NCBI GenBank assembly: GCA_021286705.1
Contig: JAJTBW010000010.1
Coordinates: 1 to 40,166, forward strand
Origin: Sphingobacteriia bacterium
Lineage (GTDB): Bacteria > Bacteroidota > Bacteroidia > Bacteroidales > TTA-H9
DNA: 40,166 bases
Direction: 5' to 3'
Within the stretch, counting starts at the first letter, position 1, and every line of letters starts with the position of its first letter. Below, piece after piece: positions 11,035 through 34,206 of the stretch. The position numbers and the translations under genes were made by a program. Below the pieces are notes generated by a model. It searched no databases. It had not been told where the DNA came from and saw only the letters and a list, made by a program, of their open reading frames with translations.

Positions 11035-11044
11035 AGTGAAAAGG

Positions 11045-12358
11045 TTATAGGTATGAGTTGACTATCAATTCATAGTATTCTTGCTTTCCACTTAACTGTT
11101 TTGGCTCTCCGTTTTCAATGGCAAGATTTCTAAGGTCTTCTAGCTTAAGCTCACCCTTTTCAAATGCTGAGCCTTGTGAGGTGGAGAAGCTACTGTACCT
11201 ATCTGAGCGAAGTTTAAGATAATCAGACTTCTGAAGGATGTTATCAGCTGCAATTAAGGCACGGGCAAAGGCATCCATTCCTGCTATATGGGCAATAAAG
11301 ATGTCATCAAGATCGGTAGAGTTGCGCCTTACTTTTGCATCGAAATTGATTCCCCCTGTCGTGAACCCACCTGCCTCTAGTATCACAAGCATTGATTCAG
11401 TTAATTCATATAGATTAACGGGGAATTGGTCTGTATCCCAACCATTCTGATAATCTCCTCTGTTTGCATCAATTGAACCAAGCATATTGGCATTGGCGGC
11501 CATCTGAAGATCGTGCTGGAAAGTATGACCTGCAAGCGTAGCATGATTCACCTCAATATTCAGTTTGAAATCTTTGTCAAGGCCATAATAACGAAGAAAC
11601 CCAATTACAGTTTGAGCATCAAAGTCGTATTGATGCTTAGTTGGCTCCATTGGTTTTGGCTCGATAAGGAATGTTCCTTTAAATCCATTACGACGACCGT
11701 AATCACGAGACATCTCAAGAAAACGTGCAAGATGATCCAACTCCTTCTGTGTATTGGTATTCAATAATGAGAGATAACCTTCTCTGCCTCCCCAGAATAC
11801 ATAGTTCTGACCACCAAGAGCGATGGTAGCATCGATAGCATTTTTAACTTGTGTTGCAGCGTAAGTCAAAACCTGAAAATCAGGATTTGTTGCAGCCCCA
11901 TTCATATATCTTGGATGAGAAAAGAGATTGGCAGTACCCCACAAGAGTTGTTTGCCTGTCTCTTTTTGCTTTAAGAGCGCATAGTCTACCATCGTTTGTA
12001 GACGCTTCTCTGATTCAGCAATGGTACCAGCCTCTTCTACGAGGTCAAAATCATGGAAACAGTAGTAATCGATACCTGCCTTCTGAAGAAATTCAAAACC
12101 TGCATCCATTTTAGCCTTACCACGTGTAATAGCATCACCTGAAATATCCCAGGGACGACGATAAGTTCCTTGTCCAAATGGATCACCTCCGTTTGAGCAT
12201 AGAGTATGCCACCATGCCATTGCGAAACGAAGATGCTCCTTCATTGTTTTACCTGCTACTACTACATCAGGTTGGTAGAATCGAAATGCCATAGGGTTTT
12301 TTGACTCAGCCCCTTCAAATTGAATTCGGTTAATTCCTTTAAAATATTCGGTACTCAT
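11045..12358 (-). CDS. xylA: Xylose isomerase
   Basis: Converts D-xylose to D-xylulose in the cytoplasm (EC 5.3.1.5). The 437 aa protein has the length of the long class II enzymes. Catalytic and metal motifs are visible: FHDFD with His102 and Asp105, [23 protein letters not shown] (metal Glu and Lys), [18 protein letters not shown], and [17 protein letters not shown]. It begins 24 bases after the xylB stop and ends ten bases before the XylE-like gene, so one transcript is likely. Xylose would come from the GH31 alpha-xylosidase of the divergent PUL. Nothing is missing or truncated. Confidence 0.97.
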
Positions 12359-12382
12359 ATTATTGAATTTAAAGATATTGTT

Positions 12383-13861: not shown

Positions 13862-14114
13862 TAGAATTAATTTGTGCTTAATGATTGGTTTAAAGTTGAT
13901 CGTACTGTTTGTAAATCGGCTGCAAGATAATGCTACTTTCAGCAAATGATAGGCTACATATGTTAAAGATTAAGCAACATTTACCCCCCGTCATATGAAA
14001 ATTGACTGTTGACAAATGATTTAGTGTTCTGAACTTAAATTGTTTATGGATTGAGTATACTATTTTGGGATGAAATGATCTTTGCGTATAACCTTCAAAC
14101 GTTTTCGATATTCA

Positions 14115-14462: not shown

Positions 14463-14682
14463 AAAGAATTATAAATAAATACATTATGTTTTCTTAGAAG
14501 CACTGTGTTTGTTGAAAATTAAGAGATATTTAACCTAGTGTTAACATATGTTACGGTATAAATGAATCAAATGAATGTGTCATTTTTACAATTGTCCCCC
14601 TAGATTATTACATTACACCACATCAATGCATCTATGTAAGTCTTACTTTGGTGCATCGAAAACCAACACTAATAAAAAAACT

Positions 14683-17600
14683 ATGGTACAGTTTTTACAC
14701 ACAAAGTTTTCCGATTATGTGTCATGCAAACGATGCCGAATAGGTCAGAAAGGTCTATTAATGGCATTGATCATGATGCTATTTATGTCGGGCGAGATTT
14801 TCGCACAAGAGAAACAGGTTAGCGGCATAGTAACTGACAATTCAGGGTTAGGCATGCCAGGTATCAATGTCACAATTAAAGGTACATTAAAAGGTACAGT
14901 TACCGATTTAAAGGGTCAATTTTCTATTAAAGTAGCACCGAAAGATACACTACATGTCTCCTTCGTAGGTTACAGAAGTCAGGATGTTGTCTCAGGAGAG
15001 AAGAGTTTCCTTAAAATCAGACTTGAGGAGGCTATTACACAGTTAGGTGAGACCGTTATTATAGGATATGGCACTCAGAAAAAGAAATTGGTAACTGGTG
15101 CCACTGCACAGTTAAAGGGAGAAGATCTTGAAAAGAGAAAAGCGGTTGACCCACTTTCTGGTATGCAAGGAATTACTGCCGGAGTAAACATCACAAGAAC
15201 CTCCGGGCAACCAGGCTCCTCTTATAAGGTAAGAGTTCGCGGTGTCGGTACCGTTGGTAATTCTTCTCCAATATTTATAGTAGATGGTGTTCAAACAAGT
15301 GATATCAGCTTTTTGAATCCTTCTGATGTTGCTTCCATTGATGTTTTAAAAGATGCCGCTTCTGCTGCTATTTATGGTAATCAGGGTGCAAACGGCGTTG
15401 TTTTAATTACCACAAAGAGTGGAAAACCAATGTCAGGTGAAGGCACTGAAACCAAATACTCTGAAGTTACCCTTGATGCATTCACAGGCTGGCAGGGTAG
15501 AGCCAAGAAAATCAGAATGCTCAATACTGAGGAGTATGTTATGATTATGAATGAGCAGCATTTAAACTCAGGTGGTTCGGTTAGCTCAATGCCTTTCAAT
15601 GCTAGTGATCTTCCACAGTATACATCTGCTGGTGTAGCCAATACAGATTGGTTCAATGAGATGATGAGCGATAATGCTATAACAAATGATATCGTTCTTG
15701 GCGTTAATGGTGGTTCAAAATATTCAACCTACTCAATGAGTCTTTCAAAATCAACTCAGGAGGGTATTGTTGGTGGCTCCTCTCTTTCCAAATATGATAG
15801 ATATAATGTTCGTATCAACTCTGATCATAAGCTCTTCGATGATTTAGTAACCATTGGCGAGAAGGTAACTTATTCTCATATAGATAATAGAGGTATTGCT
15901 GTTGGCAATCAGTATAGTAATACTCTGAGAAATGCATTTAACACCAGTCCATTGATGCCGGTTTATGATAATAACGGCGAGTTCTTTAATAGTAATTCCA
16001 CAACTATTACTGATCAGAATGGTAATACATATTGGAATAGTCAGGAGGTGAATCCTTATGCTTTGATGTATATGACTAATCAAAGTGTAAACAATTCCCA
16101 GAAGCTTTTAGGTACCATGTATGGTGAGATTAAGTTTCTAAAAGACTTTACTTTCAGATCAACCTTAGGTCTTGATTATTCAGCATCTGAGTCAAGATCA
16201 TATACTCCGGTGTATGAACTCTCGCTTTACTCTTTCTCGAAATACAATAAAGCCTCTCAGAGAATTGGAAAGGGGATGAATCTTAGCTTCGACAACTTAC
16301 TAACTTATCAGAAGAGGTTAGGTAACCATAACATCACCGGGATGGCCGGAACATCGGTTCAAAAGGCATCGGGATCATACTTATATGGCGAGAATGCTTA
16401 TTTGGCTTTTGATGATCTGGATCATGCATGGTTAGATAATTCAACCAATACTGATAATGCTGCATTAATCACCTTAAATGGTGCACCTTATACAACAAAT
16501 AGAATCATCTCTTATTTTATACGCGGTCAGTATAACTTCAAAGAGACCTATCTGTTCAATGCAACCTTTAGGGCAGATGGTTCATCCATGTTTGCAAAGG
16601 GACATCAATGGGGATATTTCCCATCTGTTTCAGCAGGATGGGTTATTACCAATGAGAAGTTCATGCAGGACTATTCTAAATACCTTCCTTACTTAAAGTT
16701 AAGGGTGAGTTGGGGACAAGTTGGTAACTGCAATATTGATCCTTTCCAATATCTCGCACCAATTAGTTTTACAAATGCAGCTTATAACTTTGGAAGTACC
16801 GAAGGTGTTAGTACCAGCGGTTCGTATCCAAGTAGGTTAAGTAATGAAGAGTTAAAGTGGGAGACCAGTGAACAGTTTGATATCGGTTTTGACGCTTCAT
16901 TCTTTGACAGCAGATTAAGTCTAAACTTCGACTACTACAGAAAAACTACAAAAGACTGGTTAATTACCGCTCCTGTTTTAGCAACAGCCGGAACAAACCC
17001 TCCAGTAATTAATGGAGGAAATGTTCAGAACAATGGCGTAGAATTGGTTCTAAGCTATACCAAGAACGAAGGAGCTTTCAAGTATCGTGCAAGCATTAAC
17101 GGAGCTTACAATAAGAACAACGTGACTGAGATTCCTACTGAGGATGGTATTCTTCATGGTTCTACAAACAGTCTCTATAATAATGCTACTGAGTTTTATC
17201 GTGCAGAGACTGGCCATGCTATTGGTTACTTCTGGGGTTGGGAAACAGATGGAATCTTCCAAACTACTGATGAGGTAAACTCTTATGTAGGTTCTAACGG
17301 GAAATTGGTTCAACCTAACGCTAAGCCAGGAGATTTAAAATATGTTGATCAGAATGGTGACGGTAAGATTGATGATAATGATAAAATCGACTTAGGTGAT
17401 CCAAATCCTGATTTTATTTTCGGATTCAGTTTTTCAGCTTCATATAAAGGTTTTGATTTTGATTTCCTTGCTACAGGAACACTTGGCAATGAAATCGTTC
17501 AGTCATACCGTAATCAAGTTGATAAGTTTGCTAACTACTCAACAGATATCCTTGACAGATGGCATGGAGAAGGTACCTCTACTACTGTGCCTCGCGTAAC

Positions 17601-17901
17601 AAACAGCAATATCAACTATAAGTTTTCTGACATCTTTGTTCAGGATGGTTCATATTTAAGAATTGCCAACATTACTCTGGGTTATGAGTTAACAAACCTA
17701 ATAAAGATTAAGGCTTTAAGTTCACTAAGAGTTTATGCCTCTGTACAGAATCTTTACACCTTTACCAATTACACAGGTATGGATCCTGATGTAGGTTATG
17801 GTTTTGTGAATGGAGCAACTGATTCATTCTCGAGTGGGGTTGATTTAGGTTACTATCCAACTCCCAGAACTATCCTCTTTGGTGTTAGTGTGAAATTTTA
17901 A
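14683..17901 (+). CDS. SusC-like TonB-dependent outer-membrane transporter
   Basis: Imports oligosaccharides across the outer membrane with TonB energy, working with the SusD partner. From the ATG at 14683 it has 1072 aa. That start follows the A-rich stretch AATAAAAAAACT and leads into the signal sequence GLLMALIMMLFMSGEIFAQE; in-frame ATGs at 14575 and 14626 are less likely. Next come a carboxypeptidase-D-like domain (VSGIVTDNSGLGMPGINVTI), a plug domain with RVRGVGTVGNSSPIFIVDG and ASAAIYGNQGANGVVLITTK, and a long beta-barrel ending in the C-terminal Phe (FGVSVKF). It ends 11 bases before susD. By locus content its ligand is probably xyloglucan oligosaccharides. Confidence 0.95.
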   Translation: MVQFLHTKFSDYVSCKRCRIGQKGLLMALIMMLFMSGEIFAQEKQVSGIVTDNSGLGMPGINVTIKGTLKGTVTDLKGQFSIKVAPKDTLHVSFVGYRSQDVVSGEKSFLKIRLEEAITQLGETVIIGYGTQKKKLVTGATAQLKGEDLEKRKAVDPLSGMQGITAGVNITRTSGQPGSSYKVRVRGVGTVGNSSPIFIVDGVQTSDISFLNPSDVASIDVLKDAASAAIYGNQGANGVVLITTKSGKPMSGEGTETKYSEVTLDAFTGWQGRAKKIRMLNTEEYVMIMNEQHLNSGGSVSSMPFNASDLPQYTSAGVANTDWFNEMMSDNAITNDIVLGVNGGSKYSTYSMSLSKSTQEGIVGGSSLSKYDRYNVRINSDHKLFDDLVTIGEKVTYSHIDNRGIAVGNQYSNTLRNAFNTSPLMPVYDNNGEFFNSNSTTITDQNGNTYWNSQEVNPYALMYMTNQSVNNSQKLLGTMYGEIKFLKDFTFRSTLGLDYSASESRSYTPVYELSLYSFSKYNKASQRIGKGMNLSFDNLLTYQKRLGNHNITGMAGTSVQKASGSYLYGENAYLAFDDLDHAWLDNSTNTDNAALITLNGAPYTTNRIISYFIRGQYNFKETYLFNATFRADGSSMFAKGHQWGYFPSVSAGWVITNEKFMQDYSKYLPYLKLRVSWGQVGNCNIDPFQYLAPISFTNAAYNFGSTEGVSTSGSYPSRLSNEELKWETSEQFDIGFDASFFDSRLSLNFDYYRKTTKDWLITAPVLATAGTNPPVINGGNVQNNGVELVLSYTKNEGAFKYRASINGAYNKNNVTEIPTEDGILHGSTNSLYNNATEFYRAETGHAIGYFWGWETDGIFQTTDEVNSYVGSNGKLVQPNAKPGDLKYVDQNGDGKIDDNDKIDLGDPNPDFIFGFSFSASYKGFDFDFLATGTLGNEIVQSYRNQVDKFANYSTDILDRWHGEGTSTTVPRVTNSNINYKFSDIFVQDGSYLRIANITLGYELTNLIKIKALSSLRVYASVQNLYTFTNYTGMDPDVGYGFVNGATDSFSSGVDLGYYPTPRTILFGVSVKF

Positions 17902-17912
17902 AATAGATTGAG

Positions 17913-19547
17913 ATGAAAAAAATACTATACTTCTTTTTAGGCAGCTTGATACTATTTTTAAGTTCTTGTGCCAAAGATTTTCTTGAGACTGAACCATTGA
18001 CTTCTAAAACTGATGGTAACTACTACAAGACCCCGCAAGAGGCACAAGATGCTCTTACTGGTTGTTATGATGCATTGCAATTGATCTATTCTGATGGAGT
18101 AGCTTTCCCGCTGGCTTCAGAGGTTATGGGCGACGAATGTTTTGGTGGAACCGGATATGGGGACAGTGATGACTATGCAATGCTTGATGAATTTGATGTA
18201 AGTGTTAATTCAGGTAGTCAGAATATTTATGAGAAAAACTGGGCTAACTACTATAAGGGTATTTTTAGGGTTAACTCTTTATTAACTCATCTGGATGGTG
18301 TAGAATGGGGTAGTCAGACTGCTTTAAGAGGTACCATTGAATCTGAAGCTAGATTTTTGAGAGCCTATTTCTATTTCGATATGGTAAGATTATGGGAAAG
18401 AGTGCCTCTACTAACAGCTCCTACCTCTGATAATGTGCCTCAAGCAAGTGCAGATGAGACTTACGCTTTAATAGCCAGTGACCTGTTGTTTGCCATTAAG
18501 AATGGTAGAACTGAGACCTACAGTCAGATTGCGACTACTGAATATGGTCATGCTAATAAATGGGCTGCTGAATCATTACTTGCACGTGTATTTCTGTTTT
18601 ATACCGGATATTATGGGAAAAGTGATCTTGTAGGTTTAGTCAGTAAGGATGAAGCTTTAGCTTATTTGGAAGATGTTATCGCCAATAGCGGTCACGATCT
18701 GGTCTCAAATTATGCGGATTTATGGCCCGCAGCTTCTACTTATGAAGCAGCTCAGAACGGATTACCTATTACCACTACTACTTATGCCGGCGAAACCAAT
18801 AAAGAGGTTGTATTTAGTATAAAATATACCTACACTTCTGATTACAATGGAAATACAGACGGAAACCATTGGTTGGTTATGAATGGCCTTCGCAAAATGG
18901 CATGGAAAAATAGTGGCTATGGTTCAGGTTGGGGAGCTTGCACTGTTATTCCTTCCTTTTATAAGACATGGAGTTCAACAGATAAAAGAAAAGCTTCCTC
19001 CATAATGGCAATTAAGGAGGAGGGAGTCAACTTTACTCAGATCAAAGACATGAAAGAGTATACTGGCTACTTCACAAAGAAATATATTCCCTTATGCGAT
19101 GAAAATGGCAATAGTACCGCAGAAATGCTAGGTGGCGTAAGCTTTATGATCAGTCAATATCAGGATTTCTTTGTGCTGCGATATGCAGATGTTTTATTGA
19201 TGGCAGCAGAGCTAGGTAGTCCCAATGCACTTGGTTATGTAAATCAGGTCAGAACACGTGCAGGACTAGAAGCAGCCCCTTCAGTTGACAAAGATGTGAT
19301 CTATCAAGAACGTAAATATGAGTTTGCATTTGAAGGAATTCGCTACTGGGATCTTCTTCGTTATGATAATTCATTACAGTATGCTTCTGATAAACTGAGC
19401 CTCAGTGAAAAAGTATTGACCGGAGGTATCGAAGATCAGAAGGTTATTCAAGGAACTATATTTAAAACCACCCGTGGCTTATCACAGATACCAGGTAATC
19501 AAATTACACTCTCAGGAGGCGTCTTAACTCAAAATCCCGGATGGTAA
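17913..19547 (+). CDS. SusD-like surface glycan-binding lipoprotein
   Basis: Outer-membrane lipoprotein that caps the SusC barrel and binds the oligosaccharide at the cell surface. The 544 aa protein has lipobox LFLSSC (Cys19), then the SusD N-terminal pattern DFLETEPLTSKTDGNYYKT and a TPR-rich core (RFLRAYFYFDMVRLWERVPL). The C-terminal RagB/SusD signature is RYADVLLMAAELG, YVNQVRTRAGL and YEFAFEGIRYWDLLRYD. Many Trp and Tyr residues are available for sugar stacking. The gene is tightly coupled to susC and 54 bases from the next lipoprotein gene. Confidence 0.95.
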   Translation: MKKILYFFLGSLILFLSSCAKDFLETEPLTSKTDGNYYKTPQEAQDALTGCYDALQLIYSDGVAFPLASEVMGDECFGGTGYGDSDDYAMLDEFDVSVNSGSQNIYEKNWANYYKGIFRVNSLLTHLDGVEWGSQTALRGTIESEARFLRAYFYFDMVRLWERVPLLTAPTSDNVPQASADETYALIASDLLFAIKNGRTETYSQIATTEYGHANKWAAESLLARVFLFYTGYYGKSDLVGLVSKDEALAYLEDVIANSGHDLVSNYADLWPAASTYEAAQNGLPITTTTYAGETNKEVVFSIKYTYTSDYNGNTDGNHWLVMNGLRKMAWKNSGYGSGWGACTVIPSFYKTWSSTDKRKASSIMAIKEEGVNFTQIKDMKEYTGYFTKKYIPLCDENGNSTAEMLGGVSFMISQYQDFFVLRYADVLLMAAELGSPNALGYVNQVRTRAGLEAAPSVDKDVIYQERKYEFAFEGIRYWDLLRYDNSLQYASDKLSLSEKVLTGGIEDQKVIQGTIFKTTRGLSQIPGNQITLSGGVLTQNPGW

Positions 19548-19601: not shown

Positions 19602-21029
19602 ATGAAAAACCAACGTTTGTTATCATTTCTCGGCGTATTATTACTTGCGCTATTCGTGGTTTCATCCTGTAAAAAGGACAAAGATGAAGAAACAACTCCA
19701 ACAACAGTTAAACCTGTTTTAGGAACTAACTTCAATTACACAGTCAGTATTAACAAAGTTTTATTTACTACCACACTATCTGGTAACGTATGGTGGACAT
19801 GTAACGGAACCGATTATACTGCTGTTGATAAAAAGGCTGAAGTAGCATTTGCTGAAGCCGGTACCTATTCATTTACTTGTAGCTATCTTTCAAATGGCTC
19901 TACACTGACCTCTGCTGCATTTGATGTGGTAATTACTGAAGGCGATACTACTGTTTACAATACTGATTGGTGGAAAGGCCTGACAAGTGGCTATGGTAAA
20001 CAGAAGGCTTGGGTTCTTGACGTTGAAGGAAAAGTTTTCCCCGGTCCTTTATCATTTCTAGGTACTTCTTGGAACTTCGTTACTGAACAGAACGAAGGTG
20101 ATGATGCATGGCTTTGGGATGCTGGTGTCGATTTCTTATTCCCTTCTGATTCTGCATCTGTTCGTTTGGATTGGCCAGGTACTGAAGGTTATGGCGTAAT
20201 GTACTTTAACTTAATTGATGGCAAACATTACATTGCTGATAAGAAAAAGGAAGCTCCTGAAGAAGGAACCTATGACCTAAACTGGGATACTAGAACTCTT
20301 ACTATCAACGGTGGAACTATTCTTAGAAGTTATAAACCATTTGCGGTTGTTGAAGGACAAACTGGTACAGTAAACGGTATCGCAGGTATTTCCGACTGGG
20401 CAAATTACAAAGTTTATAAAGTATCTGATTCTGTACTTCGTTTAGCTGTTCTTCGTGACCAGGACGTTCAGGGAGAAGCTGTTTGTTATCTTATTTACAA
20501 CTTTGTTGAAAAAGATATTTACAACAGCATCACTATTAATCCTATTGTTTATGTTGAACCGAAAAAACAGATTACCGCTACAGATCTGGTTGGTACATGG
20601 AAATATGCTACTGTTGCTCAAGATTGGATTGGCTGGCCAGAACAAGGCTCAGAAGGTGGAAAGCGCTTAAACAGCTGGACAACACGTGAAGATATGGCTA
20701 CAACTCTTGCTGGTTGGGGAGCCACTGATCCGCTGACTGTATTTAATACTGCTGCTGATTTTGAATACACTTTCAATGCCGATGGTACCTGTGTACTTAA
20801 TGGTATTGCTAATACATGGAGTGTAGCTGATGGAGTTATTACTTTTGGAACTGATCTAACTTCCGAGTTCTCATTGGTTTGGATCGGTCTGACAGGAAAG
20901 AATGTTAGTGTTCTTGATGTACGTTATGACGCTAATGGCAATGCTTACATTGCTGACGGTATGTGGATGGGACAGAAGAATGGTGATAAATATGAGTCAG
21001 TTTCTGTTCAATTAGTTAAAGTTAGATAG
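19602..21029 (+). CDS. Putative surface glycan-binding lipoprotein with PKD-like domain
   Basis: A 475 aa lipoprotein (lipobox VVSSC, Cys23, followed by KKDKDEE). It holds the place used for the second surface glycan-binding protein (SusE/F or SGBP-B) in PULs. Residues 35-110 look like a PKD-type immunoglobulin domain (GNVWWTCNGTDY, then AEAGTYSFTCSY). The rest is beta-rich with many Trp residues, in segments such as NTDWWKGLTSGYGKQKAW, SFLGTSWNF and WIGWPEQGSEGG. The GTWKYATVAQDW and NADGTCVLNG pieces suggest a lipocalin-like beta fold at the C-terminus. No catalytic motif is seen. It may bind xyloglucan at the surface and hand it to GH5 and SusCD. Function is inferred from position; the sequence is not a recognisable match to the B. 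ovatus SGBP-B that I can confirm. Confidence 0.8.
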   Translation: MKNQRLLSFLGVLLLALFVVSSCKKDKDEETTPTTVKPVLGTNFNYTVSINKVLFTTTLSGNVWWTCNGTDYTAVDKKAEVAFAEAGTYSFTCSYLSNGSTLTSAAFDVVITEGDTTVYNTDWWKGLTSGYGKQKAWVLDVEGKVFPGPLSFLGTSWNFVTEQNEGDDAWLWDAGVDFLFPSDSASVRLDWPGTEGYGVMYFNLIDGKHYIADKKKEAPEEGTYDLNWDTRTLTINGGTILRSYKPFAVVEGQTGTVNGIAGISDWANYKVYKVSDSVLRLAVLRDQDVQGEAVCYLIYNFVEKDIYNSITINPIVYVEPKKQITATDLVGTWKYATVAQDWIGWPEQGSEGGKRLNSWTTREDMATTLAGWGATDPLTVFNTAADFEYTFNADGTCVLNGIANTWSVADGVITFGTDLTSEFSLVWIGLTGKNVSVLDVRYDANGNAYIADGMWMGQKNGDKYESVSVQLVKVR

Positions 21030-21216: not shown

Positions 21217-23652
21217 ATGAAAATAAATCAAAATGCTTTTATGCTCGGATTAATATCAATCATATTATCCGGCTTTTTATTAATATCATGTCATAGAGAG
21301 GAAAAAGTGACAAGAGAACGATTGAGTTTTAATGAAGATTGGCTATTTATACTAGGCGATTCTGCGGTTTATATGAACAATCCTTTAAATGATACTGATT
21401 GGAGAAGACTTAATGTTCCGCATGATTGGAGTATAGAGGGTGAGTTTAGTAAAGATAATCCCAGTCGTATTGAAGGTGGAGCACTTCCCGGCGGAATTGG
21501 GTGGTATAGAAAGAACTTTATTGTTCCAACTGAGGATTCAGGTAAAAGAGTATATATAACTTTCGATGGTGTATATCATAATAGTGAAGTCTATCTCAAT
21601 GGTAATCTGCTTGGCAAGAGGCCTAATGGTTACATTGGATTTCAATATGATATGACCCCTTACCTAAAGTTTGGTAATCAAAATAATGTATTGGCTGTTA
21701 GGGTTGATAATTCTGATCAACCTAATTCCAGATGGTATAGCGGTTCAGGCATATATCGTAATGTCTGGATTGAGAAAACTAATCCTATTCATATCAATTT
21801 CTGGGGGACGCAGGTTGTTTCGAATTCGGTAACTACTTCTGTTGCTAATCTTACGCTTTCTATTGCTATCAATAATACCACCTCAAAGACTCAACAACTA
21901 AAGGTTGAAACGATAATTCTTGATGAGAATAATCAAGAGGTAGAGAAAATTAATGATACAATAACTGTATATCATAATGATACATCATTTCTAAGTCAAA
22001 CAATTGAAGTTAAGAATCCAAAGCTTTGGAGTACTAAGTCACCCTATCTCTACAAAGCTGTAAGTAATGTTTATGCAAAAGATCTGAAGATTGATTCTTA
22101 CGAGACCCCTTTTGGAATAAAGTATTTTGAGTTTGATGCCAAAAAAGGCTTCTCACTCAATGGCGAATCAATGAAGATAAAGGGTGTCTGTAACCATCAT
22201 GATTTAGGTGCTCTTGGTGCTGCAATAAATACACGTGCTATAGAAAGACAGCTTGAGATTCTAAAAGAGATGGGATGTAATGCCATTCGCACTTCGCATA
22301 ATCCTCCTGCACCTGAGCTGTTGGATCTGTGCGATAAAATGGGCTTTTTAGTGATGGATGAGACCTTCGACATGTGGGCTAAAAAGAAGGTAGAGTTTGA
22401 CTATTCAACACAGTGGGCTGAGTGGCACGTCAGAGATATTACAGACCATCTGCTTAGAGATAGAAACCATCCAAGTGTTATCATCTGGAGTATTGGTAAT
22501 GAAATTCCTGAACAATTTGACTCTACTGGAATATCTATAGCCCAAGAGCTATCCTCCATAATAAAGAAAATGATGCCTGGCGTTATGGTAACATCAGGTT
22601 TAAATTTCCCTGTCCCAGAGAATCTGCTCTATAAATCGGGTGCTTTAGATCTGGTTGGTTTTAACTACCACCATACCAGCTTCGACTCTTTTCCAATTAA
22701 CTTCCCAAATCAGAAGTTTATTGGCACTGAAACCACCTCATCATTAAATTCAAGAGGAGTTTACAACATGCCTTCTAACGAAATTAGGGTGTGGCCAAAG
22801 CGTTGGGACATTCCTTTCTATGAAGGTAATCCGGATAACTCATGTTCCTCATATGATAATTGCCATGCACCCTGGGGTTCTACTCATGCTGATGCTTGGA
22901 TACCTATCAGAGATAATGACTTTCTTTCCGGGATGTTTATTTGGACTGGGTTTGACTATCTCGGTGAGCCAACTCCATACCAATGGCCCTCAAGAAGTTC
23001 CTACTTCGGAATTGTTGATCTGGCAGGGTTCCCAAAGGATGCTTATTACATGTATCAAGGTGAATGGACAGACAAACCAGTATTGCATCTCTTCCCTCAC
23101 TGGAATTGGAATAAAGGCGACAATGTAGATGTATGGGTATATACAAACTGTCTGGAAGTGGAGCTCTTCTTAAACGGAAAATCACTGGGTAAAAAGTCTA
23201 AAGAGAAGAAGAGTGTTCACCTTGAATGGACTGTGCCTTTTGAAGAGGGAACTCTTCTGGCAGTTGGAAAACAGGCCGATGGCTCAACCATGATGTCGGA
23301 TGTTAAAACAGCTGGAAAACCATCAAAAGTTACTCTAGAGGCTGACAGGTCAACTATCTCAGCAGATGGAAATGATCTCGCATTCATAACTGTTTCTGTA
23401 AAAGATGCTACCAATAACCTAGTCCCATTCGCAAATAATAAAATTGAATTTAAAGTAGGCGAGGGTTTGGAGATAGTAGGAGTGGATAATGGCTCCCAGA
23501 CCAGTCATGAATCTTTCAAAGCACACTTCAGAGATGCATTTAATGGTAAATGCCTGTTGATTGTCAAAGCTTCAAAGACTCCGGGTATCGTATCGGTATC
23601 TGCATCATCTCAAGGATTGACTTGTGAACCAATCAGTATCGAATTAAAGTAA
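21217..23652 (+). CDS. GH2 family beta-galactosidase, lipoprotein
   Basis: An 811 aa GH2 enzyme, probably removing beta-1,2-galactose from xyloglucan side chains. Lipobox LLISC (Cys25) suggests outer-membrane anchoring. Domain order: sugar-binding jelly-roll (GGIGWYRKNF, GVYHNSEVYLNG), an immunoglobulin-like domain, then the TIM barrel with GVCNHHDLGALGAA, AIRTSHNPPAPELLDLCD and WSIGNEIPE (acid/base Glu429). FIGTETTSS carries the nucleophile Glu505. The C-terminal beta-domains (GLTFEC-like ending, KVTLEADRSTISADGND) match the DUF4982/GH2 C-terminal type found in Bacteroidota beta-galactosidases. First enzyme gene after the 21051 hairpin. GH2 also includes beta-glucuronidases and mannosidases; galactosidase is favoured by the locus. 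Confidence 0.9.
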   Translation: MKINQNAFMLGLISIILSGFLLISCHREEKVTRERLSFNEDWLFILGDSAVYMNNPLNDTDWRRLNVPHDWSIEGEFSKDNPSRIEGGALPGGIGWYRKNFIVPTEDSGKRVYITFDGVYHNSEVYLNGNLLGKRPNGYIGFQYDMTPYLKFGNQNNVLAVRVDNSDQPNSRWYSGSGIYRNVWIEKTNPIHINFWGTQVVSNSVTTSVANLTLSIAINNTTSKTQQLKVETIILDENNQEVEKINDTITVYHNDTSFLSQTIEVKNPKLWSTKSPYLYKAVSNVYAKDLKIDSYETPFGIKYFEFDAKKGFSLNGESMKIKGVCNHHDLGALGAAINTRAIERQLEILKEMGCNAIRTSHNPPAPELLDLCDKMGFLVMDETFDMWAKKKVEFDYSTQWAEWHVRDITDHLLRDRNHPSVIIWSIGNEIPEQFDSTGISIAQELSSIIKKMMPGVMVTSGLNFPVPENLLYKSGALDLVGFNYHHTSFDSFPINFPNQKFIGTETTSSLNSRGVYNMPSNEIRVWPKRWDIPFYEGNPDNSCSSYDNCHAPWGSTHADAWIPIRDNDFLSGMFIWTGFDYLGEPTPYQWPSRSSYFGIVDLAGFPKDAYYMYQGEWTDKPVLHLFPHWNWNKGDNVDVWVYTNCLEVELFLNGKSLGKKSKEKKSVHLEWTVPFEEGTLLAVGKQADGSTMMSDVKTAGKPSKVTLEADRSTISADGNDLAFITVSVKDATNNLVPFANNKIEFKVGEGLEIVGVDNGSQTSHESFKAHFRDAFNGKCLLIVKASKTPGIVSVSASSQGLTCEPISIELK

Positions 23653-23768: not shown

Positions 23769-25763
23769 ATGTTAAAGACAATCACCTATTTTTTTGTAAT
23801 TATCCTATTCTTAAGTGCCTGTGGTTATAAGGCTAAACAATTGGAAAAATGGCCAATAAGTTCTCCTAATGGAGAGATTCAAGCAAGCTTTTGGATTGAA
23901 AATGGCAAACCATACTATGAGGTCTCATTCAATAATAAACCTATTCTGGTAAAATCTGCATTAGGTTTTGTATTGTCAGATAATGATACGTTATCAAATA
24001 ATTTGATTCTTGTAAATCATTCTGATAGTGCTATTGATGAGACTTGGGAACAACCATGGGGACAACAGAAGTTTGTCAGAAACTATTGCAATGAAGCCAC
24101 TTTTAATCTAACTGAAGCTTCAGGCTCTAAAAGGTCTTTTGCCATAACATTCAGGGTATTTAATGATGGCGTTGGTTTTAGATATAGCTTCCCAAATCAG
24201 ACTAATCTGACAACCTTCACTATCATGGATGAGCTAACCTCATTTAACTTTCATGATGTTGCACAAGCATGGTGGATTCCGGCTTATAAGGATAACAGAT
24301 ACGAATATCTCTTTAAGAAATCTCCAATTAATGAGCTGGATACTGTTCATACTCCGCTAACATTAGAACTGCCAAATGGAGTGTTTGCTTCAATTCATGA
24401 GGCAGCTTTGGTTAATTATGCCTCTATGACTTTAGCCTCTGATAAAAAAAGCGGGCTGAAATGCGATCTTACTCCTTGGAGCAATGGGACTAAGGTTAAT
24501 GTTACCTCTCCGTTTAATACTCCCTGGCGTACAATAATTCTTGGTCATAATGCAGGTGAATTGATCACATCAACTTTGATGCTGAACCTAAATGAACCTT
24601 GCAAACTAGAAGATCTATCCTATATAAAACCACACAAATATCTTGGTATCTGGTGGGGTATGCACATTGGAAAATACAGTTTCTGGGAAGGTCCTATTCA
24701 TGGTGCAACAACGGCCAGATCAAAAGAGTATATAGATTACTGCAATAAACTTGGCATTGATCATCTTCTTATTGAAGGCTGGAATAAAGGCTGGACACCT
24801 CAATGGTATGAGAACAAGATGCATGTGTTTAGTTTTACTGAATCGACCTCTGATTTTAATTTCAAAGAGGTGGCTAACTATGCGAAGGCAAAAGGGGTTA
24901 GTTTGATTGGGTATCATGAGACCGGCTCTAACATAGAAAACTATTTGCCTCAAATTGATGCAGGAATGAAAATGTATCAGGATGGGGGGCTTCATGCTAT
25001 TAAGATTGGTCAAGTTGGCTCAAGGTTAAACATGAAAGAGTGGCATCACGGTCAGTTTGGGGTAAACTATTACCAGTATGTCCTTGAAAAAGCTGCTCAA
25101 TATAAACTAGCTGTCAATTTCCATGAACCAATTAAACCCACTGGGTTGTGTCGCACTTATCCTAACCTGTTAGCTGGTGAGGGTGGAAGAGGAATGGAAT
25201 ACGATGCATGGAGTGAAGGAAATCCTCCGGAACATACTGTAATTATTCCGTTTACTAGACTGTTGGCTGGTTCAATGGACTTTACTCCCGGTATCTTTGC
25301 AATTAAGGGGACAAGAGTTCATACAACACTGGCAAAACAGCTAGCTCTATACCTGACAATTTATTCACCAATTCAGATGTTAGCCGATCTGCCTGAAAAT
25401 TATGTAGGAAATCCTGCTTTTAAGTTTCTACAGGATGTACCGGTTAACTGGGATACAACGGTTGTCTTAAATGCTCAGATAGGTGATTTTTTAACTATCG
25501 TAAGAAAAGATATTAATTCAAATGATTGGTACCTAGGGTCTATTACCAATCAGGAGCAGAGAGAGTTTGACCTGCCATTGACATTCCTATCTAATGGAAA
25601 AAGCTATTCGGCAGAAATTTATGCTGATGGCAAAGATGCCTGCTTTGATTCAAATCCTGAAAGTGTACAGATTAGTAAAATGGAAGTCACCAATAAGACA
25701 ATATTAAAAATTAAATTGGCTAAGGGTGGTGGTCAGGCAATTCGGTTTATTGCTGAAAATTGA
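23769..25763 (+). CDS. GH97 glycoside hydrolase, inverting (SusB-like) active site
   Basis: A 664 aa lipoprotein (lipobox FLSAC, Cys18) starting at the ATG at 23769; the GTG at 23742 adds only nine residues ahead of the signal peptide. GH97 hallmarks: N-terminal beta-sandwich with FRVFNDGVGFRYSF, then a barrel with LLIEGWNKGW, GYHETGS, NFHEPIKPTGLCRTYPN and GGRGMEYDAW. Key residues are Glu384 (HETG), Glu453 (HEP), Glu471 and Glu477. Their spacings (69, 18 and 24 residues) equal those I recall for Glu439, 508, 526 and 532 of the inverting alpha-glucosidase SusB. Where retaining GH97 alpha-galactosidases carry the nucleophile Asp (KVDF), this protein has KIGQ with Gly414. An inverting alpha-glycosidase is therefore predicted. 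Its natural substrate in this locus is unclear. Confidence 0.88.
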   Translation: MLKTITYFFVIILFLSACGYKAKQLEKWPISSPNGEIQASFWIENGKPYYEVSFNNKPILVKSALGFVLSDNDTLSNNLILVNHSDSAIDETWEQPWGQQKFVRNYCNEATFNLTEASGSKRSFAITFRVFNDGVGFRYSFPNQTNLTTFTIMDELTSFNFHDVAQAWWIPAYKDNRYEYLFKKSPINELDTVHTPLTLELPNGVFASIHEAALVNYASMTLASDKKSGLKCDLTPWSNGTKVNVTSPFNTPWRTIILGHNAGELITSTLMLNLNEPCKLEDLSYIKPHKYLGIWWGMHIGKYSFWEGPIHGATTARSKEYIDYCNKLGIDHLLIEGWNKGWTPQWYENKMHVFSFTESTSDFNFKEVANYAKAKGVSLIGYHETGSNIENYLPQIDAGMKMYQDGGLHAIKIGQVGSRLNMKEWHHGQFGVNYYQYVLEKAAQYKLAVNFHEPIKPTGLCRTYPNLLAGEGGRGMEYDAWSEGNPPEHTVIIPFTRLLAGSMDFTPGIFAIKGTRVHTTLAKQLALYLTIYSPIQMLADLPENYVGNPAFKFLQDVPVNWDTTVVLNAQIGDFLTIVRKDINSNDWYLGSITNQEQREFDLPLTFLSNGKSYSAEIYADGKDACFDSNPESVQISKMEVTNKTILKIKLAKGGGQAIRFIAEN

Positions 25764-25801: not shown

Positions 25802-28180
25802 ATGAAGTACAGAACCTTATTATGTATTGGTTTGCTGGGGATGCTTACCTTTACTACTCTAAAATCAGAAGCTCAACTACAAGGGTTTCATTTGCAGAAT
25901 GAGCCAATTGATATTAGTCCTGATTTTAGCAACTTCCAAAATACCTACTATTTAGCCGATAGCTTAGTTAGCTTTGATCCTACAACAGGAAAAGGGGTTC
26001 TGAAGTATAGCCGGTATGAATACTCCACCCGTATGGCATTTAATAACATGCTGGGTAAATTGAATAGAGTTCCTGCTAATGAATTTCCTACTGCCGAGTA
26101 TGCAGCACAGCCTGAGTTACCATTCTCAGTAGAATTTGCATCACCCAGAACTATTAGAATCAGGGCTTTGTCTGGTTTTGTTGCTAAACCAAATGAAAAT
26201 TCATTAATGTTGGTAGGTGGTCAGGCTCCGATCGATAAATCGTGGAAATATCAAAAAACTTCGACAGGTCATACCTATACCTCTGTAAATGGAAAGGTTG
26301 AGATTACCAATTACCCCTGGCATGTTAAAATTTATGATGCCTCCGGTAAATTGCTTACCTCAACAATTCATCAGGATGATGTTGAACTGTCAACTTATAC
26401 TCCGGTATTACCCTTCTCTTTCGTTCGTCGTGCCTCAGATTACTCCAGAAGTTTTGCCGCTGCATTTAATCTTTCACCAGATGAGAAAATCTTTGGCTGT
26501 GGTGAGTCTTATCAGTCGTTCAATAAAAGAGGGCAGAAGGTAGTTTTATGGGTTGATGATGCTAATGGAATTCAAAATGAGAGCATGTATAAACCTATTC
26601 CGTTCTATCTGAGTAGTAGAGGCTATGGCGTATTCATGCACACCTCCACACCCATCTCCTGTGATTTTGGGAAGTACTGGAGTCAAGCCAATACAATGAT
26701 GATTGGTGATGATGAGCTCGATCTTTTCGTTTTTATTGGTAACCCTAAAGAAGTATTGAGTGCATACACTGACTTAACGGGTAAGGCACAGATGCCACCG
26801 TTATGGTCGTTTGGTTTCTGGATGAGTCGCATTACCTATTTCAGCCAGAAAGAGGGACTAATGGTTGCAGATAAGCTTCGTGCTAATAAGATTCCAACTG
26901 ATGTGCTGCATTTCGATACTGGTTGGTTTGAAACCGATTGGAGATGCGATTTCCAATTCTCAAAATCAAGGTTTGAAGATCCTAAGGCTATGATTGCAAA
27001 ACTAAAAGAGAATGGCATTAGAACCTGTCTCTGGCAATTACCCTATTTCGTTCCAAAAAATACTTTATTCCCTGAGATTGTTGAAAAGGGGCTATTTGTA
27101 AAAGATGGTAAAGGCAATCTTCCTTATGAAGACGCGGTAATCGATTTCTCGAATCCCGATGCTGTTAAATGGTATCAATCAAAGATTAAGGGTCTTTTAG
27201 ATCTTGGCGTTAGTGCAATTAAGGTTGATTTTGGTGAAGCTGCCCCCGCAAATGGACTATTTGCCTCTGGTAAGACAGGTTTTTATGAGCATAACTTATA
27301 CCCACTCAGGTATAATAAAACCATTGCTGATATTACTAAAGAGGTTACCGGGGATAATATTATCTGGGCTAGAAGCACCTGGGCTGGAAGTCAGCGTTAC
27401 CCGTTGCATTGGGGTGGCGATCCGGCAAATACCAACTCGGCAATGGCTGCGACTTTAAGAGGTGGACTTTCAATAGGAGTATCAGGTTTCTCATTTTGGA
27501 GCCATGACATAGGTGGCTTTGCATTAAAAAAGCCTGAAGATGTTTATCGTAGATGGACCCCATTTGGTATGTTAACCTCTCATACACGAAGTCACGGTAC
27601 TCCTCCAACAGAGCCATGGGAATATGGTGAGGACTTTATGAATAGCTTTAGGCTAGCTGACGAAATGAGATATAAACTTATGAGTTATATCTATACTCAG
27701 GCTAAGATCTGTAGTATGAATGGATGGCCTATGTTAAGAGCTATGTTCGTTGAATTCCCAAATGACCCCGGTAGCTGGCTCCTAGATAATCAGTATATGT
27801 TTGGATCGGATCTTCTTGTTGCTCCCCTTTTTGAGGATGTTGATTCACGAGATGTTTATCTTCCAGAAGGAGAATGGATTGATTATCAAACAGGGAAAAG
27901 CTATTCAAAAGGATGGAATCATATTAAAGCCGGTCAAATTCCCATTGTTATACTCGTAAAAGCAGGAACAGTAATTCCTCATGTCAATCTTGCTCAATCA
28001 ACACAGTTTATTGATTGGTCAAAGATTACACTCAATCTATATGGTACTGATTCGGGTAGTTGTTTCGTATATCTACCCGGTAAAGAAAAACCAGAGACAG
28101 TTCGCATTGAAAAAAACAAGGTAGTAGCTGATCCTTTTAATGGTGAAGTGAAATGGAAAATCGTTTCAGTTAAAAACTGA
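25802..28180 (+). CDS. GH31 alpha-xylosidase
   Basis: Removes alpha-1,6-xylose from the non-reducing end of xyloglucan oligosaccharides, supplying the divergent xylABE genes. The 792 aa protein has a signal peptide ending SEAQ with no lipobox, so it is periplasmic or secreted. The nucleophile Asp476 sits in IKVDFGEAAP, which follows the DFGE pattern of the alpha-xylosidase YicI and not the DMNE pattern of alpha-glucosidases. Acid/base Asp540 sits in HWGGDPANTNSAM. Other motifs: FGCGESYQSFNKRG near the N-terminus, PPLWSFGFWMSR, VLHFDTGWFETDWRCDF, GVSGFSFWSHDIGGF, and a C-terminal beta-domain with FGSDLLVAPLFEDVDSRDVYLP. It is the strongest single indicator of xyloglucan as the substrate of this locus. 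Confidence 0.94.
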   Translation: MKYRTLLCIGLLGMLTFTTLKSEAQLQGFHLQNEPIDISPDFSNFQNTYYLADSLVSFDPTTGKGVLKYSRYEYSTRMAFNNMLGKLNRVPANEFPTAEYAAQPELPFSVEFASPRTIRIRALSGFVAKPNENSLMLVGGQAPIDKSWKYQKTSTGHTYTSVNGKVEITNYPWHVKIYDASGKLLTSTIHQDDVELSTYTPVLPFSFVRRASDYSRSFAAAFNLSPDEKIFGCGESYQSFNKRGQKVVLWVDDANGIQNESMYKPIPFYLSSRGYGVFMHTSTPISCDFGKYWSQANTMMIGDDELDLFVFIGNPKEVLSAYTDLTGKAQMPPLWSFGFWMSRITYFSQKEGLMVADKLRANKIPTDVLHFDTGWFETDWRCDFQFSKSRFEDPKAMIAKLKENGIRTCLWQLPYFVPKNTLFPEIVEKGLFVKDGKGNLPYEDAVIDFSNPDAVKWYQSKIKGLLDLGVSAIKVDFGEAAPANGLFASGKTGFYEHNLYPLRYNKTIADITKEVTGDNIIWARSTWAGSQRYPLHWGGDPANTNSAMAATLRGGLSIGVSGFSFWSHDIGGFALKKPEDVYRRWTPFGMLTSHTRSHGTPPTEPWEYGEDFMNSFRLADEMRYKLMSYIYTQAKICSMNGWPMLRAMFVEFPNDPGSWLLDNQYMFGSDLLVAPLFEDVDSRDVYLPEGEWIDYQTGKSYSKGWNHIKAGQIPIVILVKAGTVIPHVNLAQSTQFIDWSKITLNLYGTDSGSCFVYLPGKEKPETVRIEKNKVVADPFNGEVKWKIVSVKN

Positions 28181-28246: not shown

Positions 28247-28306
28247 AGATGATCCGAGTCTGTTTGATCAAAGAAATGTTTATTGAATCTTTTATTATTT
28301 AATGCC

Positions 28307-30211
28307 ATGCGATACTCTCTTATTCTACTGCTTCTTACAATATCAATGATATCAAAAGGTCAGCTATCACTTGCTGATGCCTTTACTGATCATATGGTTT
28401 TGCAACGTCACATTGCCATTCCAATCTGGGGCAGGTCTTTTCCTAATGACATGGTTAGTGTTAAATTGGGTAACTCTGAGGTTGTTGTAAAGGCAAATCA
28501 AGATGGTGAATGGAGTGTCTCTATGCCATCAATGAACGAAGGTGGTCCTTACGAACTTCGTGTTTCAAATGTTGGTAAAAAGGGGAAGCCTATCGTGTGC
28601 AAAGATGTTTTGATTGGTGATGTTTGGTTAGCATCCGGACAATCAAACATGGAGTGGGAGGTAAGAAGTAGCATGAATGCAAGAGAGGAGATAGCTAATG
28701 CCACAAACTATTCTATTCGCTATTTGAAAATTCCGCATGATATAAGTTCAACTCCTAAACACTGTATTGGTAAGACTAATTGGAAGGTTATAGATACAAC
28801 CTCAGTTAAAGAGTGTTCAGCTGTAGCCTATTTCTTTAGTAAAATACTAAATAAAGAGACCAAAGTACCAATTGGTATTATTCAATCAACATGGGGTGGT
28901 ACTCCCGTCGAAGCTTGGACTAGTCGTGAAATGTTAAGCTCTTGCTCTCTGACTCATGACAGGGTAGCTCATATAGATACCTTTGGATTAATCCATTTTC
29001 AGGCCGATAGCGCTCGTATAAGGCGTTTTTGGGATATTGTCTATCACCCGGATGAAGAAGTAAAGAAAATGCTTTTAAATGCATCCTATGAGGATAAGGG
29101 GTGGGGCGTTCTATCCATGCCTAGCCTTTTAAAAGAATGGAATTGGCCTTCGTTTGAAGGAATCATCTGGCTTAGAAAAGAGATAAATATTCCGGCTGAT
29201 ATGCTTGGAAAAGATCTAACCATCAACCTGGGAAGGCCTGAACTGAATTACTCTCTTTACTTTAATGAAACTGAAATATGCAAGACTATTTGGAATGCTG
29301 AGCCCTCACATAAATATCTTCTTCCTAAAGAGATAATAAAACAGGGAAAGAACATTATAACGGTTAGATTATCTGCCTTATGGCATGGTGGTGGTTTTGA
29401 TCCTCCTGCTGAGCGAATGGTTATCAGCGATGGAATTAATAATATTTCAATTGCCGGCGATTGGAAGTTTAATAGAGAGCTTGAACCACCAGTTCCTCAG
29501 GTGAGTAATTATCAAAAATACCCCTCCTTTTTGTTTAATGCCATGATAAACCCACTTATTCCTTACGGCATAAAAGGGGTAATCTGGTATCAAGGGGAAG
29601 ATAATGTCAGAGATTCCTATAACTATCGTTTCCATTTCGTGAATATGATTAATGACTGGCGAATTAGATTTAAACTGGGGTATCTTCCATTTTATTTTGT
29701 ACAGCTGGCAAATTTCATAGACGCTTCAGATAGTGATTGGCCTTTATTACGAGAATCGCAAGAGTATGCATTTGCATTGCCAAACACTGGTATGGCTTGT
29801 ATAATTGACATTGGAGATGCGAATAATATCCATCCAGTCAATAAGCAAGAGGTAGGACTTAGATTAGCTAAAATGGCATTAAAAGACCTGTACGGCAGAT
29901 CGGGTATTGTAATAGGGCCTCGTTTTAAGGCTTATAAAGTTGATGGATCAAAGATTTCAGTAGAAATAAATGATAACGAAAAGGGTCTTGTTGTAAGGTC
30001 TGGTTCTGTTGCATCTGGATTTGAGATTGCCGGAGTGGATGGTAAATATGTTAAGGCAAATGCTAACGTAAAAGGCAATATCATAGAGGTCTCAAGTGAA
30101 AATGTTGCTAATCCCAGATACGTTAGATATGCCTGGAAAGATAACCCAGACTGCAATGTGTTTGATACAGATGGTAATCCGCTATGGCCTTTTCGTACTG
30201 ATAAAAACTAA
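28307..30211 (+). CDS. SGNH carbohydrate acetylesterase (CE20-like)
   Basis: Probably removes acetyl groups from xyloglucan side chains so that GH2 and GH31 can act. The 634 aa protein starts at ATG 28307 with signal peptide RYSLILLLLTISMISKGQ; the in-frame TTG at 28283 is rejected. It belongs to the sialate O-acetylesterase-like group: ADAFTDHMVLQR and PIWG near the start, nucleophile Ser113 in WLASGQSNMEWEV, IGIIQSTWGGTPVEAWTSR, GVIWYQGEDN, and GDANNIHPVNK with catalytic His509. A jelly-roll domain resembling the GH2 sugar-binding module (GIIWLRKEINIPADM, then YSLYFNETEI) is inserted between the first and later SGNH blocks. The xyloglucan acetylesterase XaeA of Xanthomonas (CE20) also carries an inserted domain, as I recall. 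The residue two before the His is Asn where Asp is more usual. Confidence 0.88.
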   Translation: MRYSLILLLLTISMISKGQLSLADAFTDHMVLQRHIAIPIWGRSFPNDMVSVKLGNSEVVVKANQDGEWSVSMPSMNEGGPYELRVSNVGKKGKPIVCKDVLIGDVWLASGQSNMEWEVRSSMNAREEIANATNYSIRYLKIPHDISSTPKHCIGKTNWKVIDTTSVKECSAVAYFFSKILNKETKVPIGIIQSTWGGTPVEAWTSREMLSSCSLTHDRVAHIDTFGLIHFQADSARIRRFWDIVYHPDEEVKKMLLNASYEDKGWGVLSMPSLLKEWNWPSFEGIIWLRKEINIPADMLGKDLTINLGRPELNYSLYFNETEICKTIWNAEPSHKYLLPKEIIKQGKNIITVRLSALWHGGGFDPPAERMVISDGINNISIAGDWKFNRELEPPVPQVSNYQKYPSFLFNAMINPLIPYGIKGVIWYQGEDNVRDSYNYRFHFVNMINDWRIRFKLGYLPFYFVQLANFIDASDSDWPLLRESQEYAFALPNTGMACIIDIGDANNIHPVNKQEVGLRLAKMALKDLYGRSGIVIGPRFKAYKVDGSKISVEINDNEKGLVVRSGSVASGFEIAGVDGKYVKANANVKGNIIEVSSENVANPRYVRYAWKDNPDCNVFDTDGNPLWPFRTDKN

Positions 30212-30239: not shown

Positions 30240-31991
30240 ATGATTATTCAAAAAAAACTCCCAATTCTACTTTGGTTTGTACTCTTGGGAGCTGTTCTTC
30301 TAAGTTGCAAGAAAGATGAGAAGAATAGTTTGACTGGCTCTCCAACAACTATCCAAATTCCGGCAGAGGGTGGCGTTGAAGCAATTTCAATTAAGACAAA
30401 CGCTTCATCATGGAGTATTAGTAACTCTGCAGATTGGGTTACTCTTTCACAGAGTTCAGGAACGACGGCTGAAGCATTGATAAATGTTGCTGTCTCTACG
30501 AAAACAGTCACTGACAGAGAGGCAAAACTAACTATAAAAGCCGGTGATGCAAATGAGATCATCGTGGTGGTAAAGCAAGCTGCATCAGATTATCTCTATG
30601 CCTTAAGTAGTGATGTGACTACTCTCGGGTTCTCTGTTTCTGGTAATACGCTTTCTTTCAAGGTTTCAACTACAGCTGAATCATGGTCTATACAGGATTC
30701 CATTAGTTGGCTCTCTTTTAGCACCAAACAAGGTGTAAAAGGTGAAACTACTGTCTCTTTAACTTCTAGTGCCAACTCAGGGCAAAATGCCAGACAAGCA
30801 ACCTTTGTTATTAAAGCAGATTATGCTCCTGCGGTAACTATTACGGTAAACCAGAATGGTGAATTATATCCTAATTATAATACCAATCCTATACCTGCTG
30901 ATGAAACTGGCATGGAGAGTACTGCAGGTGAACTGGCGAATAAAATAAATATTGGTTGGAATATAGGAAATACTCTGGAAGCAATAGGAGGAGAGACGGC
31001 ATGGGGAAATCCTATGGTTTCTACTGCTTTAATAGACCTTGTAAAACAGAGTGGCTTCAATGCAATCAGAATTCCTTGTTCGTTTAACCAATATATGGAG
31101 AACAGCTCAACAGCTAAAATCAAGGAGAGTTGGTTGAATAGGGTAAAGACCGTGGTTCAGTATTGCGTTGAGAGAGATATGTATGTTCTATTGAATATCC
31201 ATTGGGACGGCGGATGGCTGGAAAATAATATCACTACTCAGAAACAAGAAGCTAATAATGCAAAGCAGAAGGCATTCTGGCAACAGATAGCAACTCATCT
31301 GAGAGATTTTGATGAACATCTGATGTTTGCTAGTGCTAATGAACCTAATGTTGATAATGCAACTCAAATGGCGGTATTGACTTCTTACCATCAAACGTTT
31401 ATCGATGCTGTGAGATCTACAGGCGGTAAGAATGCATATCGTGTTTTGGTAGTTCAAGGTCCATCTACTGATATTGAGAAGACGAATCAATTAATGAAGA
31501 CGCTTCCTGTTGATGTTATTGCAAATAAGATGATGGTTGAGGTTCACTATTATACGCCCTGGAATTTCTGTGGTTTAGCCGAGGATGCCAGCTGGGGAAA
31601 GATGTTCTATTACTGGGGTAATGGTTATCATTCAGTGAATGATCCTGAACGAAATGCCACTTGGGGTGAAGAATCGACCGTTAATACCAACTTTGGTTTA
31701 ATGAGAGCCCAATTTGTACAGAAGGGCATTCCCGTCTTACTGGGTGAGTATTCTGCAATGCGTCGTTCGGCTTTAACGGGTCTTCAATTGTCAGAACATC
31801 TTGCAAGTAGAGCTTATTACCACTACTACATTACGAAAAAGGCTAAAGAAAATGGAATTTTACCCTTCTATTGGGATAACGGTGGAATGGACAATAATGC
31901 ATGTGGAATATTTAACCGATTAAATAACACGGTTTTTGATCAACAAACCCTGGATGCCTTGATGCAAGGTGCAAACGGACGAAAAAAATAA
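30240..31991 (+). CDS. GH5 (subfamily 4-like) endo-xyloglucanase with two BACON-like domains
   Basis: A 583 aa lipoprotein (lipobox VLLSC, Cys23), expected on the outer surface to cut the xyloglucan backbone. Residues 35-115 form a BACON domain (SWSISNSADWVTLS, ending VVVKQAA), and residues 120-205 a second similar one (SWSIQDSISWLSF, ending ITVNQNG). The GH5 barrel starts near residue 235: NIGWNIGNTLEA, FNAIRIPCSFNQY, LLNIHWDGGW, acid/base Glu368 in ASANEPN, MVEVHYYTPWNFCG, nucleophile Glu503 in LLGEYSA, and FYWDNGG at the end. Motif spacing matches GH5_4 enzymes such as B. ovatus BoGH5A, which carries one BACON domain. It ends six bases before the GH3 gene. Beta-glucanase activity is also possible; the neighbouring alpha-xylosidase argues for xyloglucan. 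Confidence 0.93.
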   Translation: MIIQKKLPILLWFVLLGAVLLSCKKDEKNSLTGSPTTIQIPAEGGVEAISIKTNASSWSISNSADWVTLSQSSGTTAEALINVAVSTKTVTDREAKLTIKAGDANEIIVVVKQAASDYLYALSSDVTTLGFSVSGNTLSFKVSTTAESWSIQDSISWLSFSTKQGVKGETTVSLTSSANSGQNARQATFVIKADYAPAVTITVNQNGELYPNYNTNPIPADETGMESTAGELANKINIGWNIGNTLEAIGGETAWGNPMVSTALIDLVKQSGFNAIRIPCSFNQYMENSSTAKIKESWLNRVKTVVQYCVERDMYVLLNIHWDGGWLENNITTQKQEANNAKQKAFWQQIATHLRDFDEHLMFASANEPNVDNATQMAVLTSYHQTFIDAVRSTGGKNAYRVLVVQGPSTDIEKTNQLMKTLPVDVIANKMMVEVHYYTPWNFCGLAEDASWGKMFYYWGNGYHSVNDPERNATWGEESTVNTNFGLMRAQFVQKGIPVLLGEYSAMRRSALTGLQLSEHLASRAYYHYYITKKAKENGILPFYWDNGGMDNNACGIFNRLNNTVFDQQTLDALMQGANGRKK

Positions 31992-34168: not shown

Positions 34169-34206
34169 AACGTGAAGCATCAACCTGATGCTTCACGTTT
34201 TTTTTT
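34169..34206 (+). terminator. Perfect terminator at the PUL end
   Basis: AACGTGAAGCATCA (34169-34182) pairs with TGATGCTTCACGTT (34186-34199) over 14 perfect bases, loop ACC, followed by a T-run to 34206. It ends the GH2-to-GH3 transcript and separates it from the convergent HTCS gene, whose stop codon lies at the T-run edge. Confidence 0.93.

Follow-up and report, generated by a model that had tools for sequence, protein, structure and literature searches.

What does a glycoside hydrolase family 97 (GH97) enzyme of the inverting type do in a xyloglucan utilization locus? The question is raised by the gene at 23769-25763 (+) of the window, by which we mean the whole 40,166-nucleotide stretch of DNA that was analysed. 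We predict, with a probability of roughly 60%, that it encodes an inverting alpha-xylosidase (EC 3.2.1.177) acting on xyloglucan oligosaccharides; both the xylose specificity and the stereochemical outcome are what we infer from sequence.

By its gene content the locus is a xyloglucan utilization locus, as the initial annotation had held. SusC/D, an endo-xyloglucanase-like GH5, a CE20-like esterase, a GH2 beta-galactosidase, a GH31, a GH3, a regulator and a GH43 occur together in the following arrangement.

9637-13945 (-): XylE-type xylose transporter, xylose isomerase and xylulokinase, upstream of the locus
14575-17901 (+): SusC-like TonB-dependent transporter
17913-19547 (+): SusD-like lipoprotein
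19602-21029 (+): probable surface glycan-binding lipoprotein, no Pfam match
21217-23652 (+): GH2 beta-galactosidase (GalB equivalog, above cut-off)
23769-25763 (+): inverting-type GH97 with an altered pocket (YHET, KIGQVG), predicted alpha-xylosidase (domains, alignment, tree, structure matches)
25802-28180 (+): GH31, YicI-type (nearest NCBIfam model alpha-xylosidase, below cut-off)
28283-30211 (+): SGNH acetylesterase, CE20-like (close solved relatives include the CE20 founder 7kmm, a xyloglucan acetylesterase)
30240-31991 (+): GH5 with BACON domains, closest to the Cellvibrio Cel5D and BoGH5A xyloglucanases
31998-34148 (+): GH3, probable beta-glucosidase of the exo cascade
34205-38314 (-): hybrid two-component regulator (HTCS)
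38478-39989 (+): GH43, probable arabinofuranosidase or xylosidase

The GH5 matched the Cellvibrio Cel5D structure 5oyc with an E-value of 5.5e-173, and the GH31 is not of the BoGH31A/CjXyl31A type. A GH94 phosphorylase (5137-7575, -) lies beside the xylose genes and may act by phosphorolysis on the cello-oligosaccharides that remain once the side chains are gone. An ORF of 483 aa (187-1638, -) had no Pfam or NCBIfam match.

The GH97 gene is an intact ORF of 664 aa that starts with ATG at 23769. Pfam assigned GH97_N (E 2.5e-70), Glyco_hydro_97 (E 1.3e-89) and GH97_C (E 2.6e-30), all far above gathering scores, and these E-values exclude chance for the family identity. The N-terminus has a hydrophobic leader followed by the lipobox LSAC. 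A crude pattern for a lipoprotein signal was found in 20 of 81 sequences of the clade described below, so the feature is not clade-wide. The best matches among solved structures are all inverting enzymes, PspAG97A (5hq4, E 2.6e-185) followed by FjGH97A (8wg0) and SusB, and retaining GH97 structures match far more weakly (E 1e-58). AlphaFold modelled the protein with good overall confidence (pLDDT 83.8) but poorly at residues 472-517; the fold comparison with SusB gave Z 43.6 and 1.9 A over 608 residues. The source genome also carries a separate SusB-type GH97.

We located the catalytic and pocket residues by alignment with SusB, with codon coordinates computed as 23769 + 3*(n-1).

24906-24926 (+): codons 380-386 (I-G-Y382-H-E384-T-G), strand 3, with catalytic base E384 and a His-to-Tyr switch at SusB 437
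25002-25019 (+): codons 412-417 (K412-I-G414-Q-V-G), strand 4, with the nucleophile-site Gly and the I413/Q415 switches (SusB 468, 470)
25125-25199 (+): codons 453-477, the calcium-ligand and catalytic acid region with E453, E471 and E477

The initial annotation had proposed a SusB-like spacing for four Glu residues, and the alignment confirmed their positions: E384, E453, E471 and E477 pair with SusB E439, E508, E526 and E532, and the spacing of 69/18/6 is identical. Its reading of Gly414 as a replacement for the nucleophile Asp was also right, since G414 aligns with SusB G469 and there is no Asp at the site. The catalytic bases E384 and E453 (in HET and HE motifs) and the acid E477 are thus present, as are all calcium ligands (E179, E453, E471, E477), with E179 aligning to the remaining SusB ligand E194. 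K412 and H452 complete the inverting-type set. The (K/M)(I/V)DF motif with the nucleophile Asp and the HG motif of retaining members are absent from the window enzyme in the alignment. The SusB-type inverting machinery claimed earlier is therefore borne out by residues and by the closest solved structures. SusB contacts its substrate at O2 through calcium and His507, at O3 through Lys467, at O4 through E391/W331 and at O6 through Glu439 (PMC2670981). All of these residues are kept here, including W295, E336 and K412 for O4/O3, so a gluco-configured alpha-pyranoside is the expected substrate.

The pocket differs from that of SusB at three positions in or near it, which the initial annotation missed while identifying the inverting set correctly: H437, S468 and Y470 are replaced by Y382, I413 and Q415. 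The HHET and K(T/S)GY signatures are consequently missing and read YHET and KIG(Q/H). These are signature motifs, not catalytic residues, and membership of the inverting branch is assigned from the catalytic and calcium residues, the domains and the tree. The published motif of inverting GH97 is K(T/S)GY (PMC2670981); KIG(Q/H) breaks it and, as judged from the alignment, is a new version of it.

We aligned 147 GH97 sequences and built a FastTree tree. It placed 81 sequences, including the one in the window, in a single clade (support 0.957), to be compared with 61 other inverting members. At SusB positions 437, 468 and 470, all 81 have Tyr, Ile and Gln or His, respectively, whereas all 61 others have His, Thr or Ser (one Met) and Tyr. 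Flavobacterium members have His and Tyr exchanged between strands 3 and 4. Further strictly clade-specific positions are W306, T343, H352 and Y434, and a clade-specific aromatic residue stands at 451, beside H452. Enrichment of divergent positions near catalytic residues was weak when the entire protein was considered (P 0.006-0.05) and was not significant for the barrel alone (P about 0.1-0.2); 28 of the 30 top clade-divergent positions fall in the barrel. A loop after KIGQVG that is 10 residues shorter than in PspAG97A was rejected as a diagnostic feature, as SusB-like enzymes are also short there. A literature search found no paper naming His437 or a GH97 alpha-xylosidase. A specificity shift within inverting GH97, which had been suggested, is likely given these changes relative to SusB.

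Alpha-D-xylose, a glucose ring that lacks C6, is the one alpha-linked sugar of gluco configuration that is abundant in xyloglucan, where it is alpha-1,6-linked to glucose; isoprimeverose is isomaltose without the distal C6. The initial annotation asked the right question about the substrate, overlooked this alpha-1,6-linked xylose and proposed targets that are probably wrong. In the reaction that we propose, water activated by E384 (with E453) would attack the anomeric carbon, E477 would serve as the acid, calcium held by E179, E453, E471 and E477 would bind O2, and beta-xylose would be released. Y382, in place of SusB His437, would occupy the site of the C6 hydroxymethyl. It precedes E384 by two residues on one predicted strand (378-385), an arrangement in which the two side chains should both point into the pocket, and its proposed position next to C6 could block a C6 group. 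An aromatic residue forms such a steric barrier to C6 sugars in GH31 alpha-xylosidases (PMC8245568). FjGH97A and PspAG97A act preferentially on alpha-1,6 linkages, as in isomaltose (PMC10316084), a preference that fits the 1,6-linked xylose of xyloglucan. The xylose transporter, isomerase and kinase genes adjoining the locus are supporting context.

Other evidence counts against this function. An alpha-xylosidase-type GH31 lies next door here and in most related loci, which could make a further alpha-xylosidase seem superfluous, and the Bacteroides ovatus xyloglucan locus, as described, is not known to include a GH97. The odds are evenly balanced on a wider proposal: that a His/Tyr swap in the -1 pocket turned the whole clade into inverting, calcium-dependent alpha-xylosidases, which would be the first to invert and the first outside GH31, and that they can replace GH31 in some genomes.

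A scan of 84,980 species genomes retrieved 80 loci with relatives at 51-67% identity, most of them xyloglucan-type. Within 10 kb of the GH97 we counted GH2 in 61/80, GH3 in 61/80, GH31 (at 60% identity or more) in 58/80, GH5 in 45/80 and CE20 in 45/80. None of the five occurred near other inverting GH97s in 58 loci. For GH31 the contrast (58/80 versus 0/58) gives a Fisher P of 7e-21, which is overstated because the clade is one lineage. The clade is otherwise from Bacteroidota; two members come from MAGs labelled Lentisphaerae (L027) and Opitutales (L033), which may reflect transfer or mis-binning. Flavobacterium sp. Root420 (L052) has a second copy, whose neighbours are another SusCD pair, an arabinofuranosidase resembling GH51 and an HTCS regulator. 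In L037 and L062 only the GH97-GH3 pair of the xyloglucan locus is kept; a suspected set of xylose catabolism genes beside it proved wrong, the neighbours being antiporter-like membrane subunits and a DNA polymerase Y family protein.

The clade loci bear on the reading of the protein as an ordinary inverting alpha-glucosidase with a preference for alpha-1,6 linkages, carried as a passenger and acting on a co-occurring alpha-glucan or on transglycosylation products. We consider this unlikely. Its catalytic and gluco-binding residues are conserved, its nearest solved relatives are alpha-glucosidases or glucodextranases, and L064, a near sister, has a GH13 alpha-amylase as its neighbour. However, three otherwise conserved positions are altered in 81/81 clade members and in 0/61 outsiders, the xyloglucan context is consistent across the clade loci, and the genome carries a separate SusB-type GH97. 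The co-occurring alpha-glucan that the initial annotation had offered as a target is improbable on the same grounds of context and genome content. A plain SusB-type starch enzyme was likewise rejected as the best reading, given the clade-wide motif changes and the context, and is kept as a rival.

We give a lower probability still to an activity on one of the less common side-chain sugars of xyloglucan (an arabinopyranosyl, a galactosyl or an alpha-L-linked group, for example), two of which the initial annotation had named. Xyloglucan side chains vary among plants, the -1 pocket is altered, and a site closed to C6 would likewise accommodate a pentopyranose, for example beta-L-arabinopyranose. 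Yet the gluco-type O4/O3 residues W295, E336 and K412 are kept, the O4-binding E336 among them, and GH97 alpha-galactosidases and beta-L-arabinopyranosidases form a different, retaining branch whose K(I/V)DF and HG motifs are absent here. Three loci moreover have a second, retaining-type GH97 in tandem (L004:13191-15155, L006:11987-13960, L012:7918-9936; 26-27% identity, K(V/I)DF and HG). From their motifs, these tandem enzymes are better candidates for alpha-galactosyl or beta-L-arabinopyranosyl removal.

Some genomes have the clade GH97 and no GH31 alpha-xylosidase that we could detect. In three Flavobacterium genomes (L038, L045, L051), GH2, GH97, GH3, CE20 and GH95 genes form one run in which GH2 is directly beside GH97; most relatives have GH31 between or adjoining. 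A GH31 family search found one GH31 in each of the three, all MalA-like. The one in L038 has a WNDMNE motif, matches the MalA alpha-glucosidase best and is preceded by a gene for a branching enzyme. Alpha-xylosidases of the YicI or BoGH31A type were not found in these genomes. B. ovatus cannot grow on xyloglucan or its oligosaccharides without its GH31 gene (PMC4967831). The three strains either need another means of removing xylose or use the outer sugars only. Within this gene cluster GH97 is the only candidate for the task. The GH31-free loci could also be decaying ones that harvest only fucose and galactose, and a GH5 like P0008 was not found in these genomes in a search run without a positive control. 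On the GH97 tree, loss or absence of the alpha-xylosidase GH31 amounts to about eight changes, several of them in draft MAGs or at solitary GH97 genes. F. hercynium (L043) was rejected as a GH31-free case after a BoGH31A-type alpha-xylosidase was found elsewhere in its genome. L037 and L062 were rejected as strong cases, as they have other GH31s at 43-45% identity to the BoGH31A type.

The presence of GH31 and GH97 in most loci may reflect different aglycone preferences; the GH31 of this locus belongs to the YicI type and not to the four-domain type. A narrower division of labour, in which the GH97 is an alpha-xylosidase dedicated to a small product such as isoprimeverose and GH31 does the main oligosaccharide work, or the reverse, is rather improbable. 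In its favour, the two genes co-occur in most loci, and a four-domain build with PA14 marks the GH31s that act on xyloglucan oligosaccharides (PMC8245568), a build that the YicI-type enzyme of the window lacks, judged by length. Against it, one enzyme would have to do both jobs in GH31-free genomes. A retaining alpha-galactosidase was dismissed, as the NCBIfam model scored 276 bits against a cut-off of 800 and the motifs disagree.

Removal of alpha-xylose is an obligatory step in xyloglucan use. The alpha-xylosidases known in CAZy are, to our knowledge, retaining GH31 enzymes; the literature that we searched gave no counter-example, and we know of no earlier inverting alpha-xylosidase or of any outside GH31. 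If the alpha-xylosidase assignment is correct, the annotation of xyloglucan loci would change, loci without a GH31 alpha-xylosidase would be explained, and a single family would contain a clean natural change of specificity from glucose to xylose. Genome pipelines would call the enzyme an alpha-glucosidase or an alpha-galactosidase.

We compared the enzyme and its locus with known systems. The xyloglucan utilization locus of F. johnsoniae (Fjoh_0772-0782) comprises GH5, CE20 and XusCD and is induced on xyloglucan; the text describing it neither mentions GH97 nor reports a test of such an enzyme (PMC11892949). It is the same kind of locus as that in the window, and clade GH97s are present in many such Flavobacterium loci. 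SusB/BtGH97a (2jka, 2zq0), the inverting alpha-glucosidase of the starch system, has the three-domain fold and the catalytic, calcium and O2/O3/O4 residues in common with the window enzyme. The two differ in context (starch versus xyloglucan), are about 40% identical, and have H437/S468/Y470 and Y382/I413/Q415, respectively. PspAG97A (5hq4) and the glucodextranase FjGH97A (8wg0) are the best sequence and structure matches, and PspAG97A shares the WWGMH motif. Both have HHET and KTGYV and release glucose, whereas we propose the release of a pentose. BoGH31A, XacXyl31 and CjXyl31A, the GH31 enzymes of xyloglucan loci, would share with the window enzyme the proposed reaction, the place in the cascade and the aromatic block at C6, but they belong to an unrelated family and are retaining, with an Asp nucleophile and no active-site calcium.
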